Assembly (NCBI GenBank): GCA_028289375.1
Contig: JANQQK010000013.1
Coordinates: 1 to 64,000 of the forward strand
Source: Phycisphaerae bacterium
GTDB lineage: Bacteria > Planctomycetota > Phycisphaerae > UBA1845
Direction of reading: 5' to 3'
Length of the DNA stretch: 64,000 nucleotides
A model generated the notes under the pieces. It was not told the DNA's origin. It ran no database searches and saw only the letters and a program-made list of their open reading frames with translations. The translations under genes were made by a program, and so were the position numbers. Below are positions 44,086 to 60,713 of the stretch, piece by piece (positions within the stretch are counted from its first letter, which is position 1; each line of letters begins with the position of its first letter).

Positions 44086-45206
44086 CAGGATTTGGCTCCC
44101 CCGTCACCGGATACCGCCACACCACTGCGACGATAGCGATAGTACGCCGCACACGCCCCCTCCGATGACACCATCGGCGCCCCAAGCGGCTTCTCCGGCG
44201 TACACTGGAATCCAAAGGCGGTGCACTCACAAGGCCGCTTCACCCCCTGCAGGATCAACCCACTGATGCACTCCGCCGGCTCCTCGACGTCGCCACCTTC
44301 CAACCCGAAGCGTCGCTCCGCATCGAATGTCTGATACGGCGCGCGCAAACCAAGCCCGCTCTGCGGAATCGCCCCGATCCCCCGCCACTTTCGCAGCACC
44401 ACCTCAAACACCTCTTCGATCAACGACTGCGCCGACGCATTCCCCTCCTCCGCCACCGCCCGCGAATAGGCAATCTCAACCTCCGCCCGACCCGTCTCCA
44501 ATTGCTGCACACACAGGTACACCCCCTGCAGAATGTCGACCGGCTCGAAACCCGTCACCACGATCGGAACGCCATACCGCTCCGCGATCGGTCCATATTC
44601 GCCGCACCCCATCACCGTGCACACATGCCCCGCCGCCAAGAACCCCTGCACGCGATTCTCCGATGACGACAGAATCGCCTCCATCGCCGGCGGCACCAGC
44701 ACATGCGACACCAGCATCGAAAAGTTCTCCACGCCCTTCGCATGGGCATACCGAACCGCCATCGCATTGGCCGGCGCGGTCGTCTCGAACCCCACCGCGA
44801 AAAACACAACCTGCTTGTCCGGATGCTGCTCCGCCAGTTTCACCGCATCCACCGGCGCGTAAACGATCCGAACGTCGCCCCCCTCCGACTTGACCGTCAG
44901 CAGATCCTTCTCGCTACCCGGCACACGCAACATGTCCCCGAACGAACAGAAAATGACGTCTTCCCGCGACGCCAACGCGATGGCTTTGTCGATCAATTCC
45001 AACGGCGTCACGCACACCGGACACCCAGGCCCATGAATCAGCGTGATCTCCGGCGGCAGCAGCGCATCAATCCCGTGCTTGACGATCGAATGCGTCTGCC
45101 CGCCGCAAATCTCCATCAGAACGTGCGGCTTGGTCGTGACACGACGAATCGCCGCAGCCAATCTCTGGGCAGCCTCGCCATCGCGGTACTCATCCAGATA
45201 CTTCAT
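44085..45206 (-). CDS. hypD: Hydrogenase maturation protein HypD
   Basis: 373 residues. HypD is the [4Fe-4S] scaffold on which Fe(CN)2CO is assembled together with HypC. Motifs: [45 protein letters not shown] and the C-terminal cluster-binding [19 protein letters not shown] with a later Cys ([10 protein letters not shown]). All cysteines expected for the family are visible. The ATG overlaps the hypC stop by 4 bp (ATGA). Confidence 0.97.
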
Positions 45207-45457
45207 GGCTCATCCGTTTCCAGCTCAGCCAGTTCCCCCATCTCACGAAGGTAATCAAACACCTTCTCGGCTTCCGCTTCGTCGATCACGCTCAACGCCA
45301 TCCCCACATGCACGAGAACATAATGACCAATCGCTGCCTCCGGTACGCACATCAGCGACACATCCTTCTGCACGCCGCCGAAGTCGACCTTGCCCTGCCG
45401 CAGCAGGTCTTCACCTTCTTCGATGCTGACAATCCTGCCAGGAATCGCTAAACACAT
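45203..45457 (-). CDS. hypC: Hydrogenase maturation chaperone HypC
   Basis: 84 residues from ATG 45457; the product starts [10 protein letters not shown], with the essential Cys2 that carries iron to the large subunit. A GTG one codon earlier would bury that Cys and is rejected. It continues [20 protein letters not shown] and [20 protein letters not shown], normal for HypC/HupF. The start shares TGATG with the hypF stop. Confidence 0.97.
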
Positions 45458-47754
45458 CACGCACGCTCCTTCAGTCGCGCTCGCGCCACCACAGCCTGAC
45501 CCAACGACACACCACCATCGTTCGTCGGCACCTGTTGATGCCAGTAAGGTTCAAAACCCGCCTCCTTTAACCGATCGATGGCCGACTCCAGCAGCAGGCG
45601 GTTCTGAAAACAACCGCCCGAGAGCACGACCTTCTCCTGATTGTAACACGCCGCCACCATCAGAATCGCCTCGACAAGCGTATTGTGGAACTTTCGCGCC
45701 GTTTCTTCCACCGCCCGCCCCCGACGAACATCCGCCATGATCCCCTCAATCAACCCAGCCCAATCGATCACCGCCGGATCGCCACCTCCAGCAGACACCG
45801 GATACGCATCGTCCGTCCGCCCCCGCATCGCTGCGAACTCCAGCTCCATCGCCGCATGCCCCTCATGCGCCACCCGCTGCCGCAGCCCCACCAACGACGC
45901 CACCGCATCAAACAACCGCCCGACGCTCGACGTCACCGGACAGTTCAGCCCCCTCTCAAGCGCCTGCCGCACCACGTGCAACTCCGTTTCCGCGAACGCC
46001 TTCACCGTTGGCAGATCGTCGCAATCCCAAACCGCGTCCCCCATCAACGCGTGCAACAACCCAATCGCACTGCGTCGCGGCTCATGTGACGCCGCATCGC
46101 CGCCCGGCAACCCGAATGTCCGCCAATGCGCCACCCGCTCGAATTCCCCCCGATCGCAAAGCAGAAACTCCCCGCCCCAAACGGTCCCATCCTCGCCATA
46201 TCCCGTGCCATCCCACGACACACCCAGCACCCGACCCGTCAACCCATGCTCGCCCATGCACGATGCGACATGCGCATGATGATGCTGCACGCGAATCAAC
46301 TCCGCATCCATCGCTTCCGCTCGCCGCGTCGACAAGTAATCCGGATGCAGGTCGCACGCCACGACATCGACATCGGCGTCATACAATCGCGGCAGATCAC
46401 CCACCGACCCATCGAACGCCGCCACCGCCTGCTCCGTCACCAGATCACCAATATGCTGCCCGACAAACACCTGCCGCCCCTTCGCCAGCGCCACCGTGTT
46501 CTTCTGATGCGCCCCGACGCACAACACCGTCGCACCATCGTCCTCCAACAAGACCGGCATCGGCGCATATCCCCGCGCCCGCCGCACCACCATCTCCCGC
46601 CCACAAACAACCCGAACCACCGAATCATCCATCGCCCGCACAATCGGTCGATCGTGCACCAGAAACGCATCCGCGATTCCCCGCAACCGGGTCACCGCCT
46701 CCCGCTCGTCAACACAGATCGGCTCGTCCGACAGATTCCCACTCGTCGCCACCACCGCCCCACCCAACTCACGCATCAGCAAGTGATGCAACGGCGTATA
46801 CGGCAGCATCACACCCAGATACGGATTCCGCGGACTCACCGCATCAGCCACGTCGTGCGTCACACGGTCATGACGCTCCAGCAACACGATCGGCGACGCC
46901 GGCGACGCCAACAATGCGCGCTCAACATCCCCCACATCACACAGCCGATCCGCCGTGTCCAGCGACGCCACCATGATCGCGAAGGGCTTCTCCTCCCGGT
47001 GCTTCCGACGACGCAACTCAGCCACCGCATCCCCATTGGCCGCATCCACAAGCAACTGAAAACCACCAAGCCCCTTCAGCCCGACGATCCGCCCCGCCCG
47101 AATCGCATCCACCGCCGCCATCAGCGCATCATCCCGTTCGCACACAACCGCGCCATCCGCATCCCACAACGCCAATTGCGGTCCACACGCCGGACACGCA
47201 TTCGGCTGCGCATGAAACCGCCGATCCCCCGGATCGTCGTACTCCGCCCGACAATCCGGACACATCGCAAATTTCTTCATCGAAGTGTTCGCCCGGTCAT
47301 ACGGCAGCGACGCGATGATCGAAAACCGAGGCCCACAATGCGTGCAGTTCGTAAACGGATAGCGATACCGACGATTCGACGAATCACAAACGTCAGCCAA
47401 ACAAGCGTCACAGGTGGCCACGTCCGGCAGCACGAACGCAGCCCGCGCTCCCGACACCGAACTCGCCCGAATCTCAAACGCACTACCCCCGACCGGGTCG
47501 ATCACATCCGAGGCAACCGACAACACGCTCACCAGCGCGGGACGATCGCCGTCCAGCCTCCTCTCAAACGCTGCAAGATCACCCTCCGCCCCCTCAACCT
47601 CGATGATCACCCCAGCCGGCGTATTCTCCACAAACCCCGACAACGACATCGACGTTGCCAGCCGATAGACGAATGGCCGAAACCCGACACCCTGCACGGT
47701 ACCGCTGACATGAAAACGACGGCGCGAGATCATCACGCCGACAGTCATAACCAC
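45457..47754 (-). CDS. hypF: Carbamoyltransferase HypF
   Basis: Up to 765 residues; the exact start is uncertain (47754, 47748 or 47733; acylphosphatase homology begins right after the last). Domains: acylphosphatase (FHVSGTVQGVGFRPFVYRLA), two zinc-finger pairs (CDACLADVC with CTHC; CPDCRAEY with CPACG), YrdC-like nucleotide-binding domain (GRIVGLKGLGGFQLLVDA, RRRKHREEKPFAIM) and the Kae1-like carbamoyl domain with VQHHHAHVASCMGEHGL. HypF transfers carbamoyl from carbamoyl phosphate to the HypE Cys, the first step of cyanide-ligand synthesis. It is complete. Confidence 0.96.
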   Translation of the reverse strand: MVMTVGVMISRRRFHVSGTVQGVGFRPFVYRLATSMSLSGFVENTPAGVIIEVEGAEGDLAAFERRLDGDRPALVSVLSVASDVIDPVGGSAFEIRASSVSGARAAFVLPDVATCDACLADVCDSSNRRYRYPFTNCTHCGPRFSIIASLPYDRANTSMKKFAMCPDCRAEYDDPGDRRFHAQPNACPACGPQLALWDADGAVVCERDDALMAAVDAIRAGRIVGLKGLGGFQLLVDAANGDAVAELRRRKHREEKPFAIMVASLDTADRLCDVGDVERALLASPASPIVLLERHDRVTHDVADAVSPRNPYLGVMLPYTPLHHLLMRELGGAVVATSGNLSDEPICVDEREAVTRLRGIADAFLVHDRPIVRAMDDSVVRVVCGREMVVRRARGYAPMPVLLEDDGATVLCVGAHQKNTVALAKGRQVFVGQHIGDLVTEQAVAAFDGSVGDLPRLYDADVDVVACDLHPDYLSTRRAEAMDAELIRVQHHHAHVASCMGEHGLTGRVLGVSWDGTGYGEDGTVWGGEFLLCDRGEFERVAHWRTFGLPGGDAASHEPRRSAIGLLHALMGDAVWDCDDLPTVKAFAETELHVVRQALERGLNCPVTSSVGRLFDAVASLVGLRQRVAHEGHAAMELEFAAMRGRTDDAYPVSAGGGDPAVIDWAGLIEGIMADVRRGRAVEETARKFHNTLVEAILMVAACYNQEKVVLSGGCFQNRLLLESAIDRLKEAGFEPYWHQQVPTNDGGVSLGQAVVARARLKERA

Positions 47755-47803
47755 GACAACACCCCCAGATCAAGAGCGTCCGCAGACATGCACGAAATGA
47801 AAA

Positions 47804-48304
47804 TCAACGTTCCGACGCAGAAAACGCGAATTCACCAGCGATACGTTCCACCACATCATCCACCACGCCGGACACCGCGCTCGACATGACGTCCCCCGCC
47901 TCGAACCGCGACCCCTCGATCCCATACACAACCAGCGCGCGCGGCAGCGTCCCCAGCACCCGCGCCATCTCAATCGCCTCCGCCACGCTGAACGCATGCG
48001 TCGAATAGTTGAAAAACGCGCTCGGAATTGGCTCCACATGCGCGTCCAACCGATGCACCACCCCCGCCGACGCACCCGACCGCACCGCATCCACGATCAC
48101 CACGTCATCCTCCGCCCGCCACAACGCCATCAGCGATGCCCCCTCCCCCGACGCCTCCGCCACACAGACGCCCCGACACCGATTGCGCAATCGACGCGCC
48201 ACCACCACCCCCACGGCGTCGTCACACCGATAGACATTGCCCACCCCGATCACCAGACGTCGCCCCCCATCAACATCCGGCACGGCTTTCTCGGGCAACG
48301 TCAC
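47804..48304 (-). CDS. NiFe hydrogenase maturation endopeptidase (M52)
   Basis: 166 residues from GTG 48304, overlapping the hydA stop (GTGA). Motifs: [20 protein letters not shown] (nickel-sensing Asp in the loop), [20 protein letters not shown] and [20 protein letters not shown] with the conserved His. Family M52 enzymes remove the C-terminal tail of the large subunit after nickel insertion. Here the predicted cut is after His420 of HydA, removing FLKLEVNRS. 49 bp separate it from hypF. Confidence 0.93.
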
Positions 48305-49590
48305 GACCGATTCACCTCAAGTTTCAGAAAGTGCGCCGAGCACGAAATGCATGGGTCGTAGTTACGGATCGCCTGCTCGCACTCCCACTGCAGTTCGTCA
48401 TCAGGCCGATCGAGATTCGGCTCCACGTAATGCCACAGATCCTTCTCGATCACCTTCTGATTCACCGCCGTCGGCGAGACGATCTTCGCATCCTGAATCA
48501 ACCCCGCATCATCAATCGTGTAGCGATGATAGCAGATGCCCCGCGGCGCCTCGGTGCATCCATATCCCGTCCCCGCACGAGGCTCCATCTGCACGAACGG
48601 TCGATCCGGTTCCTCATATTCCTCGACAAGCCGAATCGCCTCTTCGCACGCGAACACCGTCTCCACACCGCGAACGATGATGCTCTGGAACGGATTGCGA
48701 CAGGTTTCACCCAACCCCGCATCCTTCGCCGCCTCCTTCGCCAGCGGCGTCAGTTGATCGTAATTGATGCTGTAGCGAGCCAGCGGGCCGACATGACACG
48801 TCCCGCCACCGTTCACGTAGGTATGCAGTGCCGTCGAGTGCGGCACGTGCTTCTCGATCAGAACCGCGTCGTACTCACTGATCGGCACGTCCATGCCATT
48901 GTTGGACACGAGTCGACCTTCATTTAGCGGATACTCGTCCGGATGCTTGAGACAGACAAACTCATAATCCTGCTCAAACTCCAGGAACGGCAGGCTCGTC
49001 ACGAACTTCACCATCTTGATCGACGCATCCAGCGCCCACTTCAGATCATCCATCATTGCGCGCATTTCCCGGCGCGTCGGCACCCGATAGAAACCGCCAA
49101 CGCGCACGTTGATCGGATGAATCTCTCGCCCGCCGAGCAACTTCATGACGTCGTTGCCGATCTTCTTCAACTTCAACGCCATCTTCACCTCATCGGGATG
49201 ATCCTGTGCCATCGCGATCGCATCCGGATACTTCAGGAAATCCGGCGCATGCAGCATCGCCATGTGCAGGATGTGGCTCTCGATCCACTCCCCGCAGTAC
49301 AAAAGCCGCCGCAGGTTGCGAATCGGCGTCGGAACCGTCACTCCGCCGATCATCTCCATTGCGTGCACCGCGCCCATCAGGTACGCCACCGGACAGATGC
49401 CGCAGATCCGCGCCGTAATGTCCGGCGCTTCGGTGTAGTTCCGCCCGCGCAGAAAGGCTTCAAAAAAACGCGGAGGTTCGAAGATGCGAAACTTCACGTC
49501 GTCAAGCCGCCCGCCCTTGATATCAATCCGCAGCGCACCCTCGCCCTCAACACGCGCCAGATAGTCGACATTGATCGTTCTAGTTCGCAT
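48301..49590 (-). CDS. hydA: Group 3b [NiFe] hydrogenase large (alpha) subunit
   Basis: 429 residues from ATG 49590, which overlaps the end of hydD by 11 bp; GGGAG lies upstream. The product starts [20 protein letters not shown]. Nickel-binding motif L1 is [16 protein letters not shown] (Cys63, Cys66, His76) and L2 is DPCISCSAH (Cys414, Cys417, His420), followed by a nine-residue tail for proteolytic removal. Size and motifs fit cytosolic group 3b bidirectional enzymes (sulfhydrogenase alpha), which exchange electrons between H2 and NADP(H). It works with the HydBGD proteins encoded just upstream. Confidence 0.95.
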
Positions 49591-50368
49591 GACGGATGCT
49601 CTCCCGTTCAAAATCGGTCGCACCTGAATTGAACGTCCGCAACGACCGCACCAGATCCTCCCGACGCACATCAAGCGACGATCGCCACCACTGACTCAGC
49701 GACGGCACGTTCGCCGATTCCTTGGGACCGAAGCACGCGTAGCACCCGCGGTTGTACGACGGACACAACGCATCGCACCCCGCCTGCGTCACCGGTCCGA
49801 GACACGGCGTACCCTGCGAGACCATCACGCACGACAGCCCACGTCGCTTGCACTCCACACACACGCTGTACGTCGGAATGTTCGGCTTGCGCCCATTCAG
49901 AAACGCGTTGATCACTTCGAGAAGCTGATACTGATTGATCGGACAGCCACGCAGTTCAAAATCAACGCGCACATGGTCACCGATCGGCGTGGATTTCTTC
50001 AGCGTGTCGATGTATTGCGGCGCGGCGTACACGATCCGCGTAAACGACTCCACATTCGCGAAGTTGCGCAGCGCCTGAATCCCGCCCGACGTCGCACACG
50101 CACCAATCGTCACCAGAACCTTCGACTCCCGACGAATCTGGTGAATACGTTCAGCGTCGTGCGGCGTGGTGATCGAACCTTCCACAAGCGACACATCATA
50201 CGGACCGTCAACAACCGATTTGGTCGCTTCGGGGAAATACGCGAGTTCCACCGCTCCCACCACGTCGAGCAGTTCGTCCTCGCAATCCAACAGGCTCAAC
50301 TGACACCCGTCGCACGACGCGAACTTCCATACCGCCAACTTCGGCTTGACCTTCGGTTGCATGATCAT
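49580..50368 (-). CDS. hydD: Group 3b [NiFe] hydrogenase small (delta) subunit
   Basis: 262 residues. Start at ATG 50368 within an ATGA overlap with hydG; ATG 50362 is an alternative with better spacing to [25 protein letters not shown] carries the proximal-cluster Cys19/Cys22. It continues [20 protein letters not shown] and a C-terminal Cys-rich section ([30 protein letters not shown]) for the remaining [4Fe-4S] clusters. No twin-arginine signal is present, so the enzyme is cytoplasmic, as expected for group 3. It ends within the start region of hydA. Confidence 0.95.
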
Positions 50369-51240
50369 AGCTCCCGAATTCCGAACAGGTGTTCAATCTT
50401 GTCAAAACGAAACACAGGCCCATCCTTGCAGATGAACGTCGGGCCATACTGGCAGTGGCCGCAGAATCCCACGGCACACTTCATGTTCCGCTCCATCGAC
50501 ACGTAAATCTGATCAGCGTCCATGCCGCGACGCTGCAACGCCTCAATCGTGAAACGCATCATCACTTCCGGCCCACACACCATCGCCAACGCCTCATCCG
50601 CATCAAAACCCGCCCGCGGAATCAGCGACGTCACCACACCGATCTTCCCGCCCCAACCCGTCACAGCCCGATCCACCGTCTCGTCAACCTGGATCCGCGA
50701 CTCCACCGCCGGCGTCAGGATCTCATCGACGAACAGCCGATCGTCCGGCGTGCGCGCGCCATACAGCAATACGACGTTTCCGTAGGATTCACGATGATGC
50801 AGAATCGAGTACAACACAGGCCTCAACGGCGCCAATCCAATCCCGCCCGCCACGATGACAACGTCGCGCCCACGCGCTTCTTCGACAGGCCAAACGGTTC
50901 CAAACGGACCGCGCAGCCCGATCGTGTCGCCGCGTTTCAGTTGCCACATCGCGCGTGTGACGGTTCCAACGGCGCGGGTTGTATGCGTGACGATGTCCTG
51001 TCGCTCGGAGTCACCACTGATGGAAATCGGAATCTCGCCAACACCATGCACATACAACATGTTGAACTGACCCGGTTGAAACCCAAACGCCGTCTCACCG
51101 TCACACGCGCACAACTCGAGCGTGAATGTGTCGTGGTTCTCTCTCCGCACCCGCTCCACCGCGTACCACGACGGCAGCATCGGGTCCGCACCAATCACGC
51201 CCATATCACTCGTCATCTCAATGGTGGACATCATACACAT
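50365..51240 (-). CDS. hydG: Hydrogenase gamma subunit, FAD/NAD(P)H-binding reductase
   Basis: Up to 291 residues; several ATGs (51240, 51231, 51216) are possible and none has a strong ribosome site. It is a ferredoxin-reductase-type protein: [20 protein letters not shown] and ISISG (flavin site), [20 protein letters not shown] (NAD(P) site), [15 protein letters not shown], and a C-terminal [2Fe-2S] set [15 protein letters not shown] with FICKDGPVF. It passes electrons between NADP(H) and the iron-sulfur subunits. The beginning overlaps the end of the cyclic-nucleotide-binding gene by 23 bp. Confidence 0.93.
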
Positions 51241-51679
51241 CCAGTACTTGAAGCCGCGTTGCCTGCATTCTCTGCATGACGATCGGGAAAAACCGCTTGA
51301 TCATCGTGTAGCCAAGTTTCTTGTCTTCATCGAAGCGCTCGCGCAAGGCTGCCGCATCAAATGCAGTCGTCGCCGTCGGCATCGTCGCCTGCGCATCGAA
51401 GTTCCACAGGTAAGGATCAACCAGCCACGACCAGCCCAGCACGTCACCCTCATTGACCGTTTGAATGGTCACCGGGCCACGCTCCGGCACGAAGATCTCA
51501 ACCGCCACCGCGCCTTCGGTAATGAGATAGAATTTTTCCGCCGCGTCTCCTGCATGAAATACCAACTCCCGCGCCGCAAACATCTCCGTCGTCACAAGAC
51601 CCGAAAGAAAATCCAGATCCTTCACGGACAGTCCGGCGAAAACGGGATGGTCACGCCAATGTTCACGCATCGCATTCAC
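51218..51679 (-). CDS. Single-domain cyclic-nucleotide-binding protein in the hydrogenase operon
   Basis: 153 residues from GTG 51679, selected because AAGGAG lies 7-8 nt upstream. A cNMP-binding beta-roll fills almost the whole protein: [56 protein letters not shown] and [16 protein letters not shown]. No helix-turn-helix follows, so it is not a complete Crp/Fnr regulator. The phosphate-binding cassette is divergent (GWSWLVD instead of GE.ALL..RAA), so ligand binding is doubtful. Such lone domains occur in group 3b hydrogenase operons. An allosteric or assembly role is inferred. Confidence 0.88.
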
Positions 51680-51695
51680 GTCAAGTCTCCTTCCG

Positions 51696-52844
51696 TCACA
51701 CGTACCGCTTCGCCGGATGCTCGCTCTCGCGGATCGCAGCAACCTCTTCAGTCAGATCGATCCCCACCGGACACCAGCTGATGCACCGCCCGCAACCCAC
51801 GCAACCGATCACGCCGAACTGATCTTGCCACGTCGCCAGCTTGTGTGTCAGCCACTGCCGATACTGCGAACTAATCGACGGTCGCACACTGCCGCCCACC
51901 AGGTAGGAAAAGTCCGACGTAAAGCACGAGTCCCACTTTCGCCACCGCTCGGCATGATCACCGCTGAGGTCCGTCACGTCCTCGACCGTCGAGCAGAAAC
52001 ACGTCGGACACACCATCGTGCAGTTCGCACAACTCAGGCATCGCTCCGACACTTCCTCCCACCGCGGCGACTCGTAGTTCCGCGTCAACAACCGATGCAC
52101 ATCATCGGTCCGCATCGCACGCGTCATCCCCTGGCGAGCCGTCTCATTGATCATCGCCCGACGCACCCGATCGTCCTCGGTCGACTCACGATGCGGCACC
52201 GCGTCAAGCATCGTCGCGCCCAGTTCCGTACCGGTCTCGACGATGAATTCATGAATCCCCCCGCCAATCACCTCAGTCATCGCAAGGTCGAATCCCGATC
52301 GCGCCGCCGGACCCGTCCCCATCGACCCGCAGAAGCACGTCGCCGCAGGCTCGTTGCAATGCACCGCCACGATGAAGAGGTTCTCCCGACGGCGCTTGTA
52401 CTGCTCATCCACGAATGGACCGTCCACAAAGACCTTGTCCTGAATCGCCATCGCAGCCAGCTCGCATCCCCGTACCCCGATCAACGCCCGCTTCTGCACA
52501 TCGGCTGCAGGCGCCTCCATGTCCGGTTTGCCACCGTTTCGCTGAACCTGATAGAGCTTTTGAACCGGCGGAAACAGCTCCCGTTTCCACGAGTGAGGCC
52601 CCACCACATAACCAAACACCGCACCGTCCCCCCGCTCATGCAGGCGATACCGCCCAGGCTCCTGCTCATCCTTAAGCCCCACCGGCATGTCGCGCGTCGA
52701 GGAAATCTCGTCATACACCACCGACGCATCCCGCACCCGAGGCCCAATCAGCAGATAGCCTTCAGAAACCAGCACTTCAAAGAGCCGATCAAGCCCGTCA
52801 CGGTCAATCACATTCATGTTGGTATTCGATTCGGAAATGCTCAT
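51696..52844 (-). CDS. hydB: Hydrogenase beta subunit, [4Fe-4S] electron-transfer protein
   Basis: 382 residues from ATG 52844 (AAGGG about 11 nt upstream); longer in-frame readings run into non-coding promoter DNA. The N-terminal 260 residues match sulfhydrogenase beta ([53 protein letters not shown]). Two clusters follow: [16 protein letters not shown] (Cys269, 272, 275, 279) and [16 protein letters not shown] (Cys348, 351, 354, 358). It is the first gene of the operon, with a sigma-54-type promoter about 80 nt upstream. Gene order BGDA is the same as in archaeal sulfhydrogenase operons, except for the inserted cNMP gene. Confidence 0.93.
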
Positions 52845-52935
52845 GCAGCACCAGCCCTTCTCCGCGTCTCGACACAACAGAAAGCGTGTCGACGAGGACC
52901 ATCGAATCCCGGCCGGTATTGACCAGTTCCCTGTC

Positions 52936-52951
52936 GCAAGAACCATGCCAA
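52936..52951 (-). promoter_or_regulatory. Sigma-54 promoter of the hydrogenase operon
   Basis: On the minus strand: TTGGCATG-GTTC-TTGC (consensus YTGGCACG-N4-TTGCW). GG and GC are exactly 10 nt apart. The predicted start, near 52924, leaves a leader of about 80 nt before hydB. Hydrogenase operons under sigma-54 are well known in proteobacteria. Confidence 0.78.
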
Positions 52952-53098
52952 ACCCCACCCGACTCGCGGCCCCAAATGCCATTCTGGATTCGTCCAATTC
53001 GCGCGCGCGTGTCATTTCGCCAAACCACGGAGTCTTTTGCCCCACGCCCGGGAATCCCCAACGCGCACCCAGCCTTAATCCCGCAAATACCAGTCTGA

Positions 53099-53115
53099 TT
53101 GGCATGAGGCGTGCA
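53099..53115 (+). promoter_or_regulatory. Possible sigma-54 promoter of cytidylate-kinase-like gene
   Basis: TTGGCATG-AGGC-GTGCA keeps GG-N10-GC spacing and the same -24 box as the hydrogenase promoter, but the -12 box has one mismatch (GTGC). The predicted start near 53126 leaves 26 nt to the ATG, including the ribosome site. Weaker than the other sites. Confidence 0.45.
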
Positions 53116-53151
53116 CGTCTTTTGTTGAAAACCTCGAAGGAGGGCCAAATC

Positions 53152-53862
53152 ATGAACGCCAACTTCACCAACACCCCAGCCATGGCGAAAATCGTCAATC
53201 AGCAGATGCGCAACTGGGAATTCGCAAAGTCGCAGAAGACCGCCATCGAAACACCCACTGTCGCAGGCGTCCGTGATTTCATCTGTCTATCACGCGAAAT
53301 CGGCGCAGGCGGAGCGGACCTCGGTCGAAAACTCGCCGAGAAACACGGCTGGCCCGTTTTCGACCGCGAAGTGCTCCACTTCATGGCCGGCGATGATCAG
53401 AGCCGCGAGAACATCTACACGTCCATGGACGAACACGACCTAAGCTGGCTCGAGGAAATGCTCCGCGCAGTGCTCCAGCCGGACTTTGAGAAGAACGACT
53501 ATCTCCGACAACTCGGCAAGACCATCCTGTCACTTGCACGACAAGGCCCCGCCGTTTTCATCGGACGCGGTGCCGACCATCTGCTCCCCCGCGACGCCGG
53601 ATTGCGGGTCCGAATCATCGCCCCACTCGAACAACGCATCCGGACACTCATGCAGCGTCAATCATTGACCGAGCAGGAGGCCCAGCGCGAAATCGACAAC
53701 CTCGAGCATGAACGGACAAGATTCATCCACAAACATTTCCGCGTCGATGTGGCCGACCCGCACAACTACGACCTTGTCCTCAATCTGGCGGTGCTCTCCG
53801 ATGATTCCGCCATCGACCTGATCGACTCCGCCCGCCGCGCGATGCAACACGTCGACGACTGA
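53152..53862 (+). CDS. Cytidylate-kinase-like family protein
   Basis: 236 residues from ATG 53152 with a very strong ribosome site (GAAGGAGGG). The sequence FICLSREIGAGGADLGRKLA is the phosphate-binding loop form of the cytidylate-kinase-like family (PF13189). It continues GWPVFDREVLHFMAG, ILSLARQGPAVFIGRGADHL and LEHERTRFIHKHFRVD. Members are predicted P-loop NMP kinases, but the substrate is unknown. An N-terminal extension of about 40 residues precedes the domain. It is divergent from the hydrogenase operon and may share its control. Confidence 0.85.
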   Translation: MNANFTNTPAMAKIVNQQMRNWEFAKSQKTAIETPTVAGVRDFICLSREIGAGGADLGRKLAEKHGWPVFDREVLHFMAGDDQSRENIYTSMDEHDLSWLEEMLRAVLQPDFEKNDYLRQLGKTILSLARQGPAVFIGRGADHLLPRDAGLRVRIIAPLEQRIRTLMQRQSLTEQEAQREIDNLEHERTRFIHKHFRVDVADPHNYDLVLNLAVLSDDSAIDLIDSARRAMQHVDD

Positions 53863-53897
53863 CCGCAGCACCCACGTTCGACATTCCAAATACCAAC

Positions 53898-53920
53898 GCG
53901 TCACCCTTCGAGGGTGACGC
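53898..53920 (+). terminator. Intrinsic terminator of cytidylate-kinase-like gene
   Basis: A perfect 10-bp stem, GCGTCACCCT (53898-53907) and AGGGTGACGC (53911-53920), closing a TCG (effectively CTTCGAG) loop, followed by CTCTTTGTCC. It lies 35 bp after the stop codon. Confidence 0.75.
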
Positions 53921-53957
53921 TCGCCTCTTTGTCCTGGCAATACCAAGCCCTCCCGAC

Positions 53958-53976
53958 GCGAATGAGAATCAGTCGC
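53958..53976. promoter_or_regulatory. Imperfect palindrome, possible activator or Fur-like site
   Basis: GCGAATGAGAATCAGTCGC has dyad symmetry around base 53967 (GCGA.TGA...TCA.TCGC). By my count it matches 13 of 19 positions of the classical Fur consensus, but it lies about 180 bp upstream of the hemerythrin start, where an enhancer site for a sigma-54 activator would be expected. Both readings are inference. Confidence 0.3.
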
Positions 53977-54122
53977 CCCATCCGTCGGAGACCCCCTGTA
54001 CCGGAGCGACATCATCACGATGCAGCAACCGCCCGAGCACAATCGCTGCCAACATCGATGAATCCGAACATCACGCGCCGCACGCGTCATCACGATTCCG
54101 GGCAAATCGTGCCCCAGTGGCC

Positions 54123-54138
54123 TTGGCACACCGTTTGC
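54123..54138 (+). promoter_or_regulatory. Sigma-54 promoter of hemerythrin gene
   Basis: TTGGCACA-CCGT-TTGC: seven of eight bases of the -24 box plus the complete -12 core, with GG-N10-GC spacing. The predicted start is near 54150, leaving a 70-nt leader before ATG 54220. Confidence 0.78.
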
Positions 54139-54219
54139 CTTATCTTCCATCAAGACGACGTGCGGCAGCAGACTGGTCAACGGTCGTCCCCGATTCGCTA
54201 TTTGGGAGGCATTCACGCA

Positions 54220-54672
54220 ATGGCAGAACAGAACCTTGGGAAATGGATCCGACAGGAACACGATCACGTCGACGCGCTCGCCGCCAAGCTCCGCGAAGCG
54301 GTGGCCATCACCCCCCGCAGTTGCGGACAAGACTGGATCGAACGCATGCGCACCGTGCTCAACGAGTTTCGGGACCACCTCACCAAGCACATGGAACTTG
54401 AGGAAAACGGCGGATACATGGACGCTGTCCTCGAACGACGCCCAACCCTGTCGCACCACGTGGACCGCCTTGAGCAGGAACATCGCGACATGTCCATCCT
54501 GCTCAACGACCTTCACGAACTCGGTCAGCAGATCGATCCAAACCGTCCGCTGCTCGTCCGTGAGTTGTGCAGCCGCGTGCAGAACTTCCTCGGCTACATC
54601 GAGCACCACGAGCAATCCGAAAACGACCTCGCAGAGTTCGTCTTCACCCAGGACATCGGCTCAAAAGACTGA
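54220..54672 (+). CDS. Hemerythrin-like (HHE) protein
   Basis: 150 residues from ATG 54220 with GGGAGG 10 nt upstream. The four-helix HHE pattern is visible: QEHDHVDALAAKL, FRDHLTKHMELEENGGYMDA, RLEQEHRDMSILL and YIEHHEQSENDLAEF, giving enough His/Glu ligands for a di-iron centre. Soluble, no signal peptide. Hemerythrin domains bind O2 or NO and sense or store iron. The sigma-54 promoter and proximity to an O2-sensitive hydrogenase suggest oxygen scavenging or sensing; that link is inference. Confidence 0.88.
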   Translation: MAEQNLGKWIRQEHDHVDALAAKLREAVAITPRSCGQDWIERMRTVLNEFRDHLTKHMELEENGGYMDAVLERRPTLSHHVDRLEQEHRDMSILLNDLHELGQQIDPNRPLLVRELCSRVQNFLGYIEHHEQSENDLAEFVFTQDIGSKD

Positions 54673-54693
54673 TCCCCAACATCAGCAACAATA

Positions 54694-54724
54694 AGACGCC
54701 CGGCCATGCACTGCCCGGGCGTCT
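54694..54724 (+). terminator. Bidirectional terminator
   Basis: Stem AGACGCCCGG (54694-54703) and CCGGGCGTCT (54715-54724) with an 11-nt loop. It lies between the convergent hemerythrin and cytochrome genes. On the minus strand it is followed by TATTGTTG, on the plus strand by GTCTTCAT. Confidence 0.7.
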
Positions 54725-54755
54725 GTCTTCATACACCATCCTGTCCGCCCCGATG

Positions 54756-55262
54756 CTACTCCTCGCCGTAGCGCGGACCGGAGAAATCGCGAAACCGCCG
54801 GTGACATGAATCGCAGGTCGAATCAATCCGCGCAAGCACCACCCGCATCGAGCCAAGATCCTCCCGCAACGCCGCTGCCGTCAGATCATCGGCCTGCTCA
54901 AAAAGCGTTTCCACCTGCGCCAGAAAGCTCCGCCGATCCACTTCCGTCATATCGATGTGCGCGACCGCAACGGGGATCCGCTCCGCCGCCATCTTCAGCC
55001 GACCCGCCAAGACTTCAGCCTGATCAAACGCCTCCCGCCGACGTTCCAGACGGGTCTCTTCGATCTCCTGAGGCCAAATCGCCAACCGCCGCTGCGCCAA
55101 TTCCCCCATCACCAACCGCAATTGCTCGTCATGTACCCAGTGACCGGCTTGCCCATTTTCCATCGTCAACCCGTTGCCATTCCGATGCCCATTGCACGAA
55201 AGCGCAACGCCAGCCAATCCAGCAAGGACGAACAGACGCAACCTGTCGACAATATGCCCCAT
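54756..55262 (-). CDS. c-type haem lipoprotein (cytochrome c'-like)
   Basis: 168 residues from ATG 55262; ATGs further upstream at 55289 and beyond are possible. Signal peptide VDRLRLFVLAGLAGVALSC with lipobox at the Cys. The mature protein is helical (MGELAQRRLAIWPQEIEETR, FLAQVETLFEQADDL) and ends with one haem-binding CDSCH followed by RRFRDF. A single CxxCH near the C-terminus of a four-helix protein is the layout of cytochrome c' and c556. Possible roles are NO binding or periplasmic electron transfer. It shares a terminator with the hemerythrin gene and is divergent from the porin gene. Confidence 0.8.
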   Translation of the reverse strand: MGHIVDRLRLFVLAGLAGVALSCNGHRNGNGLTMENGQAGHWVHDEQLRLVMGELAQRRLAIWPQEIEETRLERRREAFDQAEVLAGRLKMAAERIPVAVAHIDMTEVDRRSFLAQVETLFEQADDLTAAALREDLGSMRVVLARIDSTCDSCHRRFRDFSGPRYGEE

Positions 55263-55343
55263 CAACGTTCCCAAACGAGCATTTCCCATGCCGTGCAACA
55301 CCATCATCTCCGCGCGTGGCACGATTCCTGTAGCGACCATCGC

Positions 55344-56678
55344 ATGAATGCACGACAACGTCCGCGAATCATCTGCTCACTCCTGATCATCACGGCCACC
55401 GGTTCCCTCGCCATCGCCCAGTCGACGACAACCGCAGCAAAAGACACGGACACCCAACCCGCGTCAACCGATCCTGATCCCGAAGACCCCGAGTCATCCG
55501 GTTCCAAATCACAGCTCAGGATCCTACCCCAGCAGATCACCCTCGACACCGTCCCGGACGCCATCACAGACGCACTGAACATTTACGAGGACCGCGGATT
55601 CGCATTTCACGTCTTCTTCAACAACCACTATCAAGCCGTCGTCAAGAACGGGCTTGACACCAACGGAGGTCGAAACGCCGCATCACTCGACGCGTTCCTC
55701 ACCTTCGATCTCGAACAACTCGGACTCATCGATGAAGCCGACGCCCTCATCCACCTCCAGACCAATTGGGGCGCCGGCATCAACGACCGAACGGGCTCAA
55801 ACCTGGAGGTCAACGACGACGCCGCCGGCGACCTTGGATTCCACATCGCACAAGCCTGGTACCGACACTACTTCTTCGACCACAAACTCGCCGTCAAGAT
55901 CGGATTTATCGACCATCAGGTCACCATCGACCGAAACCGATTCGCCAACGCCGAAGACATCCAGTTCATGAATCAGGCCCTCGACAACAACCCGCTCGTC
56001 CCGCTCGCCGTCGGACTCGGCACCTCCGTCACCATCGCACCGACAGATTGGACCACCCTCACACTCGGCGTCGGCGATGCACAATCCGTCCTGTACAAAC
56101 CCGGCTTCTCCACCGCTTTTCACGACGAAAATCAATGGTTCGCCTACATCGAACAGGCGTTCCATCTGCGATTCGAATCGCGCAAAGGCCCACTCGAAGG
56201 CAACTACCGTTTCGGCATGGTATACGACCCGCGTCCGCGTCCCATCTTCACCGACCAGCGGAACGTCGAGTCCGACGACGACTACGGCTTCTACCTCAGC
56301 TTTGACCAGATGCTCTATCGGGAATCACGCGACGATGATCAAGGGCTCGGCGTCTTCGCCCGCTTTGCCTACCGCACACCCGAGCAGAACCAGTTCTACC
56401 ACTTCTGGTCCGCCGGCTTTCAGTACCTCGGACCCATCCCAGGCCGAGACCGCGACCGCCTCGGTTTCGGATTCCTCGCCCAATATCCGTCCGTGAATTT
56501 CCGCGAATTCGTCGATCCCGACATCGACGAAGAAGTGATCTACGAACTCTACTACGCCATCCAGGCCACCGACCACATCGTCGTCACACTCGACGCTCAG
56601 TACATCGACAACCCCGCAGGCCAATCAGACCCCACCAACACCATCACCGCAGGCGTCCGCGTCCGATTTGCGTTGTGA
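55344..56678 (+). CDS. OprB-type outer-membrane porin
   Basis: 444 residues from ATG 55344. Signal peptide ARQRPRIICSLLIITATGSL ending AIAQ, then an acidic Asp/Pro/Ser linker. The beta-barrel matches the carbohydrate-selective porin OprB family (PF04966): AWYRHYFFDHKLAVKIGFID, NRFANAEDIQFMNQALDNNP, FGFLAQYPSVNFREF and a typical last strand ITAGVRVRFAL. It should permit sugar or other anion uptake across the outer membrane. No good ribosome site precedes the ATG, so it may be leaderless or poorly translated. A perfect -24 box (TGGCACG, 55317-55323) lies just upstream, but the -12 box is poor. Confidence 0.85.
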   Translation: MNARQRPRIICSLLIITATGSLAIAQSTTTAAKDTDTQPASTDPDPEDPESSGSKSQLRILPQQITLDTVPDAITDALNIYEDRGFAFHVFFNNHYQAVVKNGLDTNGGRNAASLDAFLTFDLEQLGLIDEADALIHLQTNWGAGINDRTGSNLEVNDDAAGDLGFHIAQAWYRHYFFDHKLAVKIGFIDHQVTIDRNRFANAEDIQFMNQALDNNPLVPLAVGLGTSVTIAPTDWTTLTLGVGDAQSVLYKPGFSTAFHDENQWFAYIEQAFHLRFESRKGPLEGNYRFGMVYDPRPRPIFTDQRNVESDDDYGFYLSFDQMLYRESRDDDQGLGVFARFAYRTPEQNQFYHFWSAGFQYLGPIPGRDRDRLGFGFLAQYPSVNFREFVDPDIDEEVIYELYYAIQATDHIVVTLDAQYIDNPAGQSDPTNTITAGVRVRFAL

Positions 56679-56742
56679 CACACCCACCTCCCGGACACCT
56701 TCTGTCGCGACGCCGGATGACCCGACGTCCAGCGACCACCAG

Positions 56743-56931
56743 CTACACCGTGACGTTGTCGGCCTGTCGCAGCCGCTCGACCAGCGAATTGAGCTGCCGC
56801 TTCTCCATCATCAGCTCATCGCGGTAGGTCGACGTCTGCGTGTGACGGATCTCCGGCCCCATGTTCCGGATCTCACGGTCAATTAGCGCCACAAGCAGGT
56901 CACGTTCCTCCCTGGACATCTTGAACACCAT
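56743..56931 (-). CDS. Small helical protein under a sigma-54 promoter
   Basis: 62 residues from ATG 56931 (AAGG 6-7 nt upstream; the preceding GTG 56934 and ATG 56916 are alternatives). The sequence MVFKMSREERDLLVALIDRE followed by IRNMGPEIRHTQTSTYRDEL and KRQLNSLVERLRQ is predicted to be two amphipathic helices, with no signal peptide or membrane helix. I recognise it only as a conserved type of unknown small bacterial protein. A near-perfect -24/-12 promoter lies 90-105 bp upstream, and this regulation groups it with hemerythrin and hydrogenase. Confidence 0.78.
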   Translation of the reverse strand: MVFKMSREERDLLVALIDREIRNMGPEIRHTQTSTYRDELMMEKRQLNSLVERLRQADNVTV

Positions 56932-57020
56932 CACACACCTTCATTGTCCAATATGTCACGACTTCAACGCCCATGCGCTGAAGAACGTGTGTGGTGAGGT
57001 GATCACGATGCAAGTGGTAC

Positions 57021-57036
57021 GCAAATGAATTGCCAG
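57021..57036 (-). promoter_or_regulatory. Sigma-54 promoter of the small helical protein
   Basis: On the minus strand: CTGGCAAT-TCAT-TTGC, GG-N10-GC spacing exact. Predicted start near 57009; leader about 78 nt to ATG 56931. It lies in the 115-bp gap after the SpoIIE phosphatase gene. Confidence 0.75.
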
Positions 57037-57046
57037 TACGAATGCC

Positions 57047-58201
57047 TCATAGCCTCGAGATAATGACCATCGTCCGGTCATCATCCGGCGACGCATCCCC
57101 TCGCCACGCAGATTCTTCTGCGAAGCATCGGTCCATTCGCTCCGCGGACACTCCATCGATCGCCGCTGCACGCAGAAGTCTGTCCACGCCGAATTGTTCA
57201 CCCGATGCGTTGTGCGACTCGATCAGGCCATCCGTCGGCACCACCAGGCAGTCACCCTCCCCCAAAGCGATCTCGGTCGATTCCAGAACATCCTCCGCAA
57301 GCCCCAACGCCAACGGTGTCGTATGCGTCGGCAGAGTCTCCAATGCACCATCGACCCGCAAGACTTGCACCGGGCCATGCCCTGCCGACAGGTACTTCAA
57401 ACGGCCTGCAGCGGGGTCCAACTCAATCGCCGCCAAGGTCACAAACGACCCAAGCTGAACATCCGCTCGCATGAGCGTGTCGAGTTCCCGCATCGCCGTA
57501 GGCAAGTCTTGCTGCGGGAACAGTACCCGTCCGAAGGATCGGCACACCGCTGCGATAAGGGCAGACCCGATGCCATGGCCTGTGACGTCGCCAAGCAATG
57601 CGATCCAGCGGTCATCTGGAAGCGCAATGAAGTCATAGAAGTCGCCTCCGACGAATTCTGCCGGTTCGCAGCGCGCTGCTATGTCATACCCCGCCAAAAA
57701 CGGAACATCCTTCGGCAAGAGTGATGATTGAACTCGGCGAGCAATCGACAATTCCCGCTCCATCGCCGCACGCGACGCCAACTCGTCCGCAAGGCGACGA
57801 TCACTGGTCACGTCTCGCGAAATTCCCAGCATCATCCGCTCGCCTGTCTTCGGGTCATCAAACGGAATGATGTTTGCCTGCAACAGCCCCGCAGATCCGT
57901 CAGACCGAATGTAAGGCAGGTCGTCCGTGGTCACCGGATCGCCACGCTCGATGATGGGGATCAACATTTCCTCGTAGAACTCTGACTGATCCGCATCGCC
58001 GTCCACATCACGATGGCGAAGCCCCACAATGCTCTCTTTGGTATGACCAAAGTACTCAGCAGCTGCGCGGTTTGCGTACTGAAAACGCATCTCAGCGTTA
58101 TGCACATAGAAAAAATCGGGAATCCGATCCAGAAGCGTCCCCATTAACTCAAGACGCTCATCATCACCAGCACGACCGCTGCCATCACCTGCCTTAGTCA
58201 T
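57047..58201 (-). CDS. PAS-domain PP2C-type (SpoIIE/RsbU) phosphatase
   Basis: 384 residues from ATG 58201. A PAS domain spans about 20-130 (DRIPDFFYVHNAEMRFQYAN, GLRHRDVDGDADQSEFYEEM), a short helical linker (ERELSIARRVQSSLLPKDVP) follows, and the SpoIIE phosphatase domain runs from about 185 to the end. Metal-binding acidic motifs are VGGDFYDF, LGDVTGHGIG, PTDGLIESH and PDDDRTMVII. RsbU-type phosphatases dephosphorylate STAS anti-anti-sigma proteins in partner-switching stress pathways. The PAS domain probably senses redox or a ligand; no haem or flavin residue can be assigned. No STAS or anti-sigma partner gene is nearby. Confidence 0.93.
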   Translation of the reverse strand: MTKAGDGSGRAGDDERLELMGTLLDRIPDFFYVHNAEMRFQYANRAAAEYFGHTKESIVGLRHRDVDGDADQSEFYEEMLIPIIERGDPVTTDDLPYIRSDGSAGLLQANIIPFDDPKTGERMMLGISRDVTSDRRLADELASRAAMERELSIARRVQSSLLPKDVPFLAGYDIAARCEPAEFVGGDFYDFIALPDDRWIALLGDVTGHGIGSALIAAVCRSFGRVLFPQQDLPTAMRELDTLMRADVQLGSFVTLAAIELDPAAGRLKYLSAGHGPVQVLRVDGALETLPTHTTPLALGLAEDVLESTEIALGEGDCLVVPTDGLIESHNASGEQFGVDRLLRAAAIDGVSAERMDRCFAEESAWRGDASPDDDRTMVIISRL

Positions 58202-58263
58202 CACTTATCCACCAACGTCGCAAACTCATCTGATCGTCACGCAAGAACGGAAGTACGGAAAAG

Positions 58264-59583
58264 TCAGACTCGCAGCCCCACCGGGTCGACTCGTCGTCGC
58301 AACGCCAGCGTCCCGCACGTCACCAAAAGCAACGCCATCAACAGCGCGCTCCAGCCCGACATCGTCGGAACCCCCGCAATCGAACACGGATCCGCACCAG
58401 CCGATCCGATTGGCCGAACCCGGAAGACCCGGCCATCGTCCGCACTGTAGCTCGACGCCAGATAGAACAGGTTCCCCCGCGGATCCAACGCCACGTACAT
58501 CGGCTTCACCCGGCCCGCCGGATCGGAATACCCCACGTCCGTGGCAAACGCTTCCAACATCGGCGACGCCTCCGACGCCAATGTCACCAACTCTCCGGAG
58601 TCGCCACCATTCCCGCCCCAGAGCGACGCGAAATAGACCCCGTGAAATGCAGGCCCGAACGTCCCGCATGACGGATACCACACCCCGCCCGAAACGATCC
58701 GCCCGCTCGATCCACCCGTTCCGACGTTAGACCAATCGTCCGTTTCGACACCGATCCCGTCGTACCCGTCGTGGCCGTAGTTCGCACCCACCGCCAAACG
58801 CAAGACGCGTGCCTTGTTCGGACCGCCAACGTCGTTGATGTAGATCTCCCCCGACTCCGGATGCACGGCCATCGAAAACGGATTCCGCAGCCCCAGTGCA
58901 TACACAGCCCGGTAGGCACCGGTGGCGTTGTTGTAAAACGGGTTGTCCGTCGGAATCGTCCCGTCAGGTTGAATGCGAAACACCTTGCCCGTGTGGGTCG
59001 ATAGGCTCTGCACATCGTCCCCGCCATTCCACCCGTCCCCGGTGGTGAAGTACAGCAATCCATCCCCGCCGAACGCCAACGCACCACCATTGTGACTGCC
59101 GCTCGAATCACCACCTGCGAACGGCATCTCGAACAGCAGCGTCTCTGTCGGATCGGCCACATTCGGATCGCCCGCGCTCGCCTGAATCCGCACCACGCGA
59201 TTGTGTCGTGGAGAGTCCTTCATGTAGAAACAGTAAACATACCCATTTGTCTCGAAGTCCGGATCGAACACAAACCCGCGCAGCCCCGAGGAACGATGTG
59301 CCTCCGGCGTCCCGTTTCCATCGGTCGGCACATCGAACGTGTAAAAGGGCTGGGGATTGAGCGTCCACGAGTCGGTCCCCGAATCCCACGTTGCCACCCG
59401 CAACTGCCCCAGAACGCGCTCGGACACGAACAACCGACCGTCCGGCGAAAACGCCATCGTCGCCGGGTCCTGCAACCCAGAGATCACCACCTCCTGCTCA
59501 AACCCACCCGGCAGCGTCGCCGCCATCAAGGGTCCACCGATCGCCATCGACGACAACAGGGACAGAACCCGTCGCATAACCAT
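58264..59583 (-). CDS. Secreted sugar-dehydrogenase-like beta-propeller with CTERM tail
   Basis: 439 residues from ATG 59583 with AAGGAG 9 nt upstream. Signal peptide VMRRVLSLLSSMAIGGPLMA. The body matches the GSDH/YliI family (PF07995), soluble PQQ-type aldose dehydrogenase-like propellers: ISGLQDPATMAFSPDGRLFV, LRGFVFDPDFETNGYVYC, SHNGGALAFGGDGLLYFTTG, YALGLRNPFSMAVHPESGEI and NYGHDGYDG. It ends VPTMSGWSALLMALLLVTCG then RRR, a CTERM-type sorting tail. The substrate is unknown; an oxidised sugar or a structural role is possible, as PQQ ligands cannot be verified by eye. Confidence 0.87.
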   Translation of the reverse strand: MVMRRVLSLLSSMAIGGPLMAATLPGGFEQEVVISGLQDPATMAFSPDGRLFVSERVLGQLRVATWDSGTDSWTLNPQPFYTFDVPTDGNGTPEAHRSSGLRGFVFDPDFETNGYVYCFYMKDSPRHNRVVRIQASAGDPNVADPTETLLFEMPFAGGDSSGSHNGGALAFGGDGLLYFTTGDGWNGGDDVQSLSTHTGKVFRIQPDGTIPTDNPFYNNATGAYRAVYALGLRNPFSMAVHPESGEIYINDVGGPNKARVLRLAVGANYGHDGYDGIGVETDDWSNVGTGGSSGRIVSGGVWYPSCGTFGPAFHGVYFASLWGGNGGDSGELVTLASEASPMLEAFATDVGYSDPAGRVKPMYVALDPRGNLFYLASSYSADDGRVFRVRPIGSAGADPCSIAGVPTMSGWSALLMALLLVTCGTLALRRRVDPVGLRV

Positions 59584-59748
59584 GGCCCAGCACTCCTTTC
59601 AATTCGACTGCGTGGTCAACCCCGCCCCAAGGCCGTTGTTCATACCCACTCAGCCGACGCGACTCAACACAATTCCAGACCTACAGTGACACCTGAACAG
59701 CGACGCTGAACGAGTCCGATGCGTTCTGCCTCAGAATCCAGCGTCCAT

Positions 59749-59765
59749 TTGGCACGGTACTTGCA
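59749..59765 (+). promoter_or_regulatory. Consensus sigma-54 promoter with no downstream gene on its strand
   Basis: TTGGCACG-GTAC-TTGCA agrees with the published consensus YTGGCACG-N4-TTGCW at every position. The predicted start is near 59776. The only plus-strand reading frame there begins at GTG 59775, before the start site, and lacks a ribosome site. A non-coding product is likelier. A direct repeat CTGAAC (59693 and 59706) lies about 75 bp upstream of the start. Confidence 0.75.
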
Positions 59766-59775
59766 GGAGTACTAG

Positions 59776-59839
59776 TGCACGCCAACCGAAGCCAAGCACA
59801 CAATCGGTTGACCTGCCTCACTCCGGGAAACGCGGAGTG
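59776..59839 (+). ncRNA. Candidate sigma-54-driven small RNA with two hairpins
   Basis: From the predicted start the transcript would fold into hairpin 1, CAACCGA/TCGGTTG (59783-59789 with 59804-59810, 14-nt loop), and hairpin 2, CACTCCG/CGGAGTG (59819-59825 with 59833-59839, 7-nt loop). No clear terminator follows, so the 3' end is unknown, and a longer RNA would be antisense to the methyltransferase gene. Candidate only. Confidence 0.3.
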
Positions 59840-59960: not shown

Positions 59961-60713
59961 CTACCGCAAACGCATCACAAAATACGCGTAGCTGTAGAAA
60001 TCCGAGAACTGATCGAACATCGACAGTTCAAGTCGTGCTTCGTTCAGCACATCTTCCGCCGAAACATTGCCCATCCATCGTGCTTCGACTTGGGCCAAAC
60101 GCCGTCGCAGCGGGCCGTAGTATGAACTTTCCCACACAGCGGCTGGCAGAACAAAATCCGCCACTGCGTCATATCCCACTTGGTGGATGATTTGCCACTT
60201 GTGCTCCACGCTGTCGATCTCGGGGTAGGCCGTCCAGAACGACTTCAACACCTCCGGCGGATCATTCCGCAACCACACGACTTCGCTGACGACGGCGTAT
60301 CCACCAGGCTTCAGGTAGGACTTCAACGACGCGAGACCATGTCGAAAACCGATGTTGTACAGTGCCCCTTCAGACCAGATGAGGTCAAAAGCCGCACCGA
60401 CAAACGGCAAATCCCCCATGTCCGCCAGCACCGGACTGACGCGATCCGACCAGCCTTCGTCGCCGGCGCGGTGACGCAATCGCTCGAGCATGATGGCGAG
60501 ATTGTCCACGGCGATCAGTCTTGCGTCCGTGGCTTGAGCCAACGCGGAAGTCTGCGCGCCCGGGCCACAACCGATATCGAGAATCCGCGCATGCAGTGGG
60601 AGGGAACCGACGCGCTCGAGTGCGCGGAGCGTGTGCGCGTCATCACCCGGCCCGCATCGCGGCAGGTGCGCGTACAAGTCCAGGAAGTAACCCATTCGGT
60701 CGTCGTCACTCAC
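59961..60713 (-). CDS. Class I SAM-dependent methyltransferase
   Basis: 250 residues from GTG 60713 (AGGAT upstream). The SAM-binding motif I is ARILDIGCGPGAQTSALAQA, then LIAVDNLAIMLERLRHRAGD, motif II/III FDLIWSEGALYNIGFRHGLA and LKPGGYAVVSEVVWL. It resembles small-molecule (UbiE/YcgJ-type) methyltransferases; substrate unknown. It lies 56 bp after the DUF4136 lipoprotein gene on the same strand and may be co-transcribed. Confidence 0.9.
   Translation of the reverse strand: MSDDDRMGYFLDLYAHLPRCGPGDDAHTLRALERVGSLPLHARILDIGCGPGAQTSALAQATDARLIAVDNLAIMLERLRHRAGDEGWSDRVSPVLADMGDLPFVGAAFDLIWSEGALYNIGFRHGLASLKSYLKPGGYAVVSEVVWLRNDPPEVLKSFWTAYPEIDSVEHKWQIIHQVGYDAVADFVLPAAVWESSYYGPLRRRLAQVEARWMGNVSAEDVLNEARLELSMFDQFSDFYSYAYFVMRLR

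Follow-up and report, generated by a model that had tools for sequence, protein, structure and literature searches.

We analysed a 64-kb stretch of contig JANQQK010000013.1 from a Phycisphaerae bacterium (positions 1 to 64,000; hereafter the window), in which a [NiFe] hydrogenase operon and a divergent cytidylate-kinase-like gene are preceded by sigma-54-type promoter boxes. Both probably belong to a sigma-54 regulon driven by the response regulator RR54 and the sensor kinase GCSHK, and the likely purpose of such a regulon would be to install a ferredoxin- and H2-based fermentative metabolism as oxygen falls. In the mechanism that we propose, sigma-54 RNA polymerase would transcribe the hydrogenase operon and the kinase-like gene, with RR54 as the activator and GCSHK, encoded beside it on contig C14, as its partner. 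Once phosphorylated, RR54 would occupy the two palindromes at 53008-53044 and so activate both divergent promoters. It is predicted to activate at least six further promoters, those of a hypAB-hoxEFUYH operon, two 2-oxoacid:ferredoxin oxidoreductases, acetyl-CoA synthetase, a CBS protein and a cytochrome. The promoter elements and the genes they precede are as follows.

52936-52951, minus strand: sigma-54 box TTGGCATGGTTCTTGC of the hydrogenase operon, with 88 bp between it and the start of hydB; strict consensus, recurring upstream of HydB orthologues
51696-52847, minus strand: hydB-like Fe-S subunit (HydB/sulfhydrogenase-type beta), heading the [NiFe] hydrogenase operon, which is of group-3b type
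53008-53044: paired enhancer, CGTGTCATTTCGCCAA (53008-53023) and GGAGTCTTTTGCCCCA (53029-53044), spaced by 21 bp and located halfway between the divergent boxes
53099-53114, plus strand: sigma-54 box TTGGCATGAGGCGTGC (TGGCATGAGGCGTGC at 53100-53114) of the cytidylate-kinase-like gene; its single mismatch falls in the -12 element
53152-53862, plus strand: cytidylate-kinase-like protein (PF13189); in relatives its gene is linked to that of hemerythrin or of the globin kinase
54123-54138, plus strand: sigma-54 box of the hemerythrin gene; strict consensus, recurring upstream of orthologues; no enhancer found here
54220-54672, plus strand: hemerythrin-like protein (PF01814)
57021-57036, minus strand: sigma-54 box preceding the gene of a 62-residue protein; no enhancer
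56743-56931, minus strand: 62-residue protein, without a Pfam match; family present in 19 of 60 related genomes
59749-59764, plus strand: sigma-54 box, exact match; no credible gene downstream

The window contains four matches to the strict pattern YTGGCA-N6-TTGC and no more, each where an earlier reading of the sequence alone (the sequence-only reading) had placed it, save that the fourth match ends at 59764 and not at 59765. Its chance figure of about 0.2 matches per window agrees with dinucleotide shuffles of the window, which contained 0.25 on average and 2 at most. All four boxes are intergenic, as it had stated; three of them also face a gene, with its start some 80-90 bp away, but the box at 59749 does not. 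The identities given to the targets, from the HydB-type operon to the 62-residue protein, were recovered throughout, and the weak fifth site before the kinase-like gene is present and is now among the two best-supported promoters. The boxes of hydB, the kinase-like gene and hemerythrin have the GG of the -24 and the GC of the -12 element at the correct spacing and before the gene. The GTGC variant found at the kinase-like gene recurs at other promoters of the system, for example at L163, L196 and L215.

A scan of the complete genome (4.99 Mb), a check that had been suggested along with these boxes, gave 48 strict matches versus 27 for the reversed pattern. There is thus an excess, but a bare strict match is unreliable, as on these counts it is correct only about half of the time. 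The same 48 sites yield a rough Poisson estimate of ~0.003 for four boxes in 7 kb, which keeps such a cluster unusual. A relaxed box (TGGCAY-N6-TGC) was not enriched genome-wide (118 versus 117 in the control), and relaxed boxes lacking other support were therefore not counted as promoters. These modest genome-wide figures are what favours the view that a G+C-rich genome has yielded such boxes by chance; their conservation, their distances to genes and the enhancers speak against it. We consider it very improbable as a whole, and for the hydB, kinase-like and hemerythrin boxes it is already disfavoured.

A motif search upstream of boxes returned the palindrome CTGCGGGAATTCCCGCAG, chiefly in more distant families; within the window's family it takes the form TG.GGCAATTGCC.CA, with an expectation-maximization likelihood of 75.5 versus 24-27 in shuffles. 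The enhancer consensus from relatives' promoters is TGTGGCAATTGCCACA-like and paired, with a spacing of 19-22 bp, as an NtrC-type activator would lead one to expect; the palindrome often lies between two divergent boxes at GCSHK/CBS loci. Nothing clear emerged when a shared enhancer was sought from own-genome promoters alone. With the final matrix, built from relatives only, the enhancer at 53008-53044 reached a tandem score of 19.9 (P = 0.00025); it is placed symmetrically, 58-94 bp from both boxes. A regulon of an NtrC-type activator calls for such paired sites 60-150 bp upstream of its boxes, and hydB and the kinase-like gene have them. The boxes and paired enhancers are read directly from the DNA, and we infer that the GCSHK-RR54 pair acts on them.

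Over 346 kb of this genome, the matrix gave 11 tandem matches, of which 7 were suitably spaced from a box (~1.4 expected from shuffled DNA). A blind scan of 186 box-like sites genome-wide returned eight promoters: IOR, hypAB-hox, a POR-type operon, acetyl-CoA synthetase (acs), CBS, the divergent partner of CBS, hydB and the kinase-like gene (genes outside the window were called with a simple codon-score finder). hypAB heads a second hydrogenase operon of the NAD-linked (Hox) type, hypAB-hoxEFUYH, and no other single result supports the model as well as its blind recovery. IOR and the POR-type operon add two 2-oxoacid:ferredoxin oxidoreductases with enhancer-bearing promoters. The enhancer is also present at a cytochrome promoter on C14, which has a variant box.

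Sigma-54 itself is encoded by one rpoN in the genome, outside the window, with the C-terminal RpoN box SRRTVAKYR, so that the sigma factor on which the sequence-only reading depended is present. That reading had placed the activator elsewhere, and none of the ~11 clear sigma-54 activator genes of the genome lies within the window. The candidate pair is on contig C14, where GCSHK, a kinase with protoglobin, HisKA and HATPase domains, adjoins RR54, an NtrC-type response regulator with receiver, sigma-54 AAA+ and HTH_8 domains; a CBS-domain protein and then cytochromes follow. The globin domain of GCSHK matches that of AfGcHK from Anaeromyxobacter sp. Fw109-5 (5OHE; E = 2.6e-27). Y42 and H96 of GCSHK, invariant in 12 orthologues, align with Tyr45 and His99 of AfGcHK, which are the oxygen-binding residue and the haem ligand, respectively (PMC8697598). 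Oxygen is the signal that we would expect GCSHK to sense. AfGcHK shares globin domain and both residues with GCSHK, but GCSHK differs in having a direct NtrC-type partner.

Orthologues were gathered from 60 genomes of the window's genus, family and order. Full-length GCSHK is encoded in 50 of the 60, and its gene lies within 12 kb of the hemerythrin gene in 8 of 33 genomes and within the same distance of the kinase-like gene in 8 of 34 (~0.2 expected in each case). In two relatives (G004 and G034), kinase, regulator, CBS, kinase-like gene, hyp genes and hydrogenase form a single cluster. A GCSHK search among named taxa mostly returned kinase-domain matches; the closest full-length one came from a Phycisphaerae metagenome-assembled genome (MAG; 45%). 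The activator near IOR on contig C64 (HTH_23 plus AAA+) was considered as the regulator and rejected; RR54 was preferred because of its linkage and the autoregulatory enhancers.

Two observations concern GCSHK-RR54 loci elsewhere. At four loci of relatives (L206, L207, L208 and L209), a 1200-residue pyruvate:ferredoxin oxidoreductase-like protein is encoded beside the pair, mostly with a DHOD-like gene. In a proteobacterial MAG (L233), homologues of GCSHK (39%) and RR54 (45%) lie beside apparent cbb3-oxidase genes, with an exact box facing them; this locus is a possible bridge to the myxobacterial Nmp system.

The Nmp system, NmpRSTU of Myxococcus xanthus, is the closest known one (PMC6211767, PMC11841059). 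It consists of the protoglobin kinase NmpU, a hybrid kinase, a phosphate sink and the NtrC-like regulator NmpR, and it binds and activates the promoters of CBS, universal stress protein (USP), cbb3 oxidase and hemN-hemerythrin genes, a sigma-54 regulon (PMC11841059). Homologues of NmpSTU and of NmpU-NmpT were reported from planctomycetes in 2018, with no regulon given (PMC6211767). Common to both systems are a protoglobin kinase with haem-ligand His and distal Tyr, an NtrC-like sigma-54 regulator with receiver, AAA+ and helix-turn-helix domains, paired enhancers and an autoregulated locus with a CBS-domain gene; Nmp targets likewise include USP and hemerythrin. In our genome, however, the kinase directly adjoins the regulator; neither the hybrid kinase NmpS nor the double receiver NmpT was found among the neighbours of GCSHK-RR54 on C14, the part of the genome searched for them. 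The Nmp site is GCGCA-N5-TGCGC, whereas ours is the palindrome described above, and the predicted targets found here are two hydrogenases, ferredoxin oxidoreductases, Acs and the kinase-like gene. The enhancer-bearing promoters included none of cbb3 or hemN. Since NmpS/NmpT at the locus and the GCGCA-N5-TGCGC site are both missing and the targets are others, we regard the present system as a variant of the Nmp system and not as a member of it.

Sigma-54 promoters also precede [NiFe] hydrogenase genes controlled by activators of the HoxA/HupR type, where the signal is H2 or formate. The promoter arrangement is shared with our genome, but the candidate sensor here is an oxygen-binding globin. 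Sigma-54 regulation of hydrogenases has been found enriched in proteobacteria (PMC12316311). The hypoxia (dormancy) regulons of actinobacteria under DosSR/DevR and OsdR (PMC5069765) likewise join a haem sensor kinase, hypoxia and universal stress proteins, but they use another regulator family and no sigma-54. Among the papers searched, none joined a globin-coupled kinase, sigma-54 and oxygen, and none joined planctomycetes with sigma-54, hydrogenase and hemerythrin. To our knowledge, little is known of oxygen sensing and hydrogenase regulation in planctomycetes. The present analysis names a concrete candidate sensor, activator, DNA site and target list for them, and it would carry the Nmp oxygen regulon, described only recently, into a further lineage, with another enzymatic output, two hydrogenases and ferredoxin oxidoreductases.

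Several points weigh against the proposed model. RR54 carries GAFTDA in place of GAFTGA, a change kept in every full-length orthologue examined; in a Desulfovibrio study, GAFTDA is listed among the variants expected to stay functional (PMC4641369). The set used in the motif search (59 promoters) included the hydB/kinase-like pair, which the final matrix leaves out. The reversed-box control of the blind scan is small, and its 0 of 61 sites versus 8 of 186 is not a significant difference alone. Among HydB boxes of the family, only one of four has the enhancer. Finally, AfGcHK is kinase-active with oxygen bound, its active forms being Fe(II)-O2, Fe(II)-CO and Fe(III) (PMC8697598). In M. xanthus, NmpS inverts the signal; as AfGcHK is oxygen-active and no such hybrid kinase lies beside GCSHK-RR54, the sign of control is left unexplained. 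The same two facts are what would be expected if enhancers and promoters were real and GCSHK, like AfGcHK, were active with oxygen or CO bound, the regulon being induced under those conditions. We consider this improbable, since the targets include two hydrogenases and two ferredoxin oxidoreductases, anaerobic enzymes of kinds that are typically sensitive to oxygen. We expect the regulon to be switched on by low, not high, oxygen, which poses the question of how a globin kinase whose best-studied relative is oxygen-activated could turn on anaerobic genes without an inverting kinase. A broader proposal, which we offer as a speculation and would not expect to hold in full, is that across an order-level group of probable planctomycetes GCSHK might signal to GAFTDA-type RR54 without NmpS as a master switch from respiration to H2-linked fermentation, with a polarity opposite to that of AfGcHK and with several sigma-54 promoters sharing the one enhancer of their locus.

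The boxes had also been expected to persist in close relatives. We scanned 300 bp upstream of the orthologues for boxes with at most one mismatch, using the reversed pattern as control and counting the window's own gene each time. Boxes were found at 8 of 23 HydB genes, 10 of 30 hemerythrin genes and 8 of 30 kinase-like genes (reversed control: 1, 1 and 0). The expectation held for these three, and less so for the 62-residue protein, with boxes in few relatives: one had an exact box and two of one genus a one-mismatch box, about the level allowed by one-mismatch chance.

From these results, the low-oxygen or redox sigma-54 response of the sequence-only reading stands, as to sigma-54 control and the low-oxygen theme, for the hydrogenase and the kinase-like gene, and a predicted low-oxygen regulon of these two is well supported; hemerythrin, the 62-residue protein and the supposed small RNA are less certain members. 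The idea that the four strong boxes form one regulon fared worse, as within the window only the hydB/kinase-like pair has an enhancer. None was found within 220 bp upstream of the hemerythrin, 62-residue-protein and 59749 boxes (p = 0.80, 0.17 and 0.45). Enhancers of the NtrC type can work at a distance, and all four boxes and the weak one could still be served by the enhancer at 53008-53044, together with two strong tandem enhancer-like pairs (60165-60199 and 60381-60418), if these sites reached hemerythrin, the 62-residue-protein gene and a 59749 transcript over distances of 0.4-4 kb. The boxes are clustered, the hemerythrin box is conserved, hemerythrin and kinase-like gene are neighbours in 7 of 28 genomes and in M. 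xanthus NmpR targets hemerythrin (PMC11841059). No tandem pair in 346 kb scores higher than the one at 60165. However, both pairs fall within the coding sequence of a methyltransferase and, at 400-650 bp, on the downstream side of the 59749 box that they would serve; they may be downstream enhancers or a coincidence of codons. Together with the missing upstream enhancers, this makes a single regulon of all five boxes unlikely.

It is easier to envisage, at somewhat less than even chances, that the boxes are real and answer to several unrelated activators, hydB and the kinase-like gene to RR54, and hemerythrin, the 62-residue-protein gene, USP and AsnA to other signals. The USP, AsnA, groES and VOC-like promoters examined resemble those of hemerythrin and the 62-residue protein in having no such enhancer, and the genome has other activators with GAF, RtcR and receiver domains. 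Against this, the locus of USP and AsnA also contains the enhancer-bearing IOR promoter, and hemerythrin promoters of three relatives (G021, G034 and G004) have the RR54-type enhancer. As these are three of the family's nine hemerythrin boxes, hemerythrin is best regarded as a variable member, probably part of an RR54-type regulon in relatives and possibly so here. The case for the 62-residue protein as a member is weaker.

A small RNA had been suspected behind the 59749 box. This was not borne out: conservation of the DNA downstream was limited to 25-34 nt stretches in two genomes, both in unrelated coding regions, and the region gave no Rfam match, terminator or upstream enhancer. A chance match is the likeliest reading of this box.

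Behind hydB, the hydrogenase operon continues as follows.

51218-51742, minus strand: cyclic-nucleotide-binding-domain protein (PF00027)
50365-51240, minus strand: HydG-like FAD/NAD(P)-binding subunit
49580-50368, minus strand: [NiFe] hydrogenase small subunit, read from the open reading frame; counterparts adjoin HydB and HydG in L196 and L197
48301-49674, minus strand: [NiFe] hydrogenase large subunit, best matches ShyA and HydA; start codon uncertain
44085-48304, minus strand: maturation protease, HypF, HypC and HypD, read from the list of open reading frames; one strand, adjoining ends

An operon with HydB, HydG, small and large subunit and the relation to sulfhydrogenases place the enzyme in group 3b, the subgroup being assigned by closest match only, with scores below the NCBIfam equivalog cut-offs.

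Homologues of the 62-residue protein (L045-L062) form an uncharacterised family of ~60 residues with the core L-x-PEIRHT-x-DDLK. Between its gene and that of hemerythrin lie genes for a cytochrome c'-like protein and an OprB porin (54756-55358), without a strict sigma-54 box. Outside the window, three sigma-54 boxes within 0.8 kb (L149 on contig C64; 8138, 8861 and 8920) precede IOR, a universal stress protein and an AsnA-type asparagine synthetase; at this locus the enhancer is present at IOR only. On contig C19 (L009, 1501), an exact sigma-54 box lies 91 bp before groES, and sigma-54 control of chaperonins has been suggested for Planctomycetota (PMC12316311).

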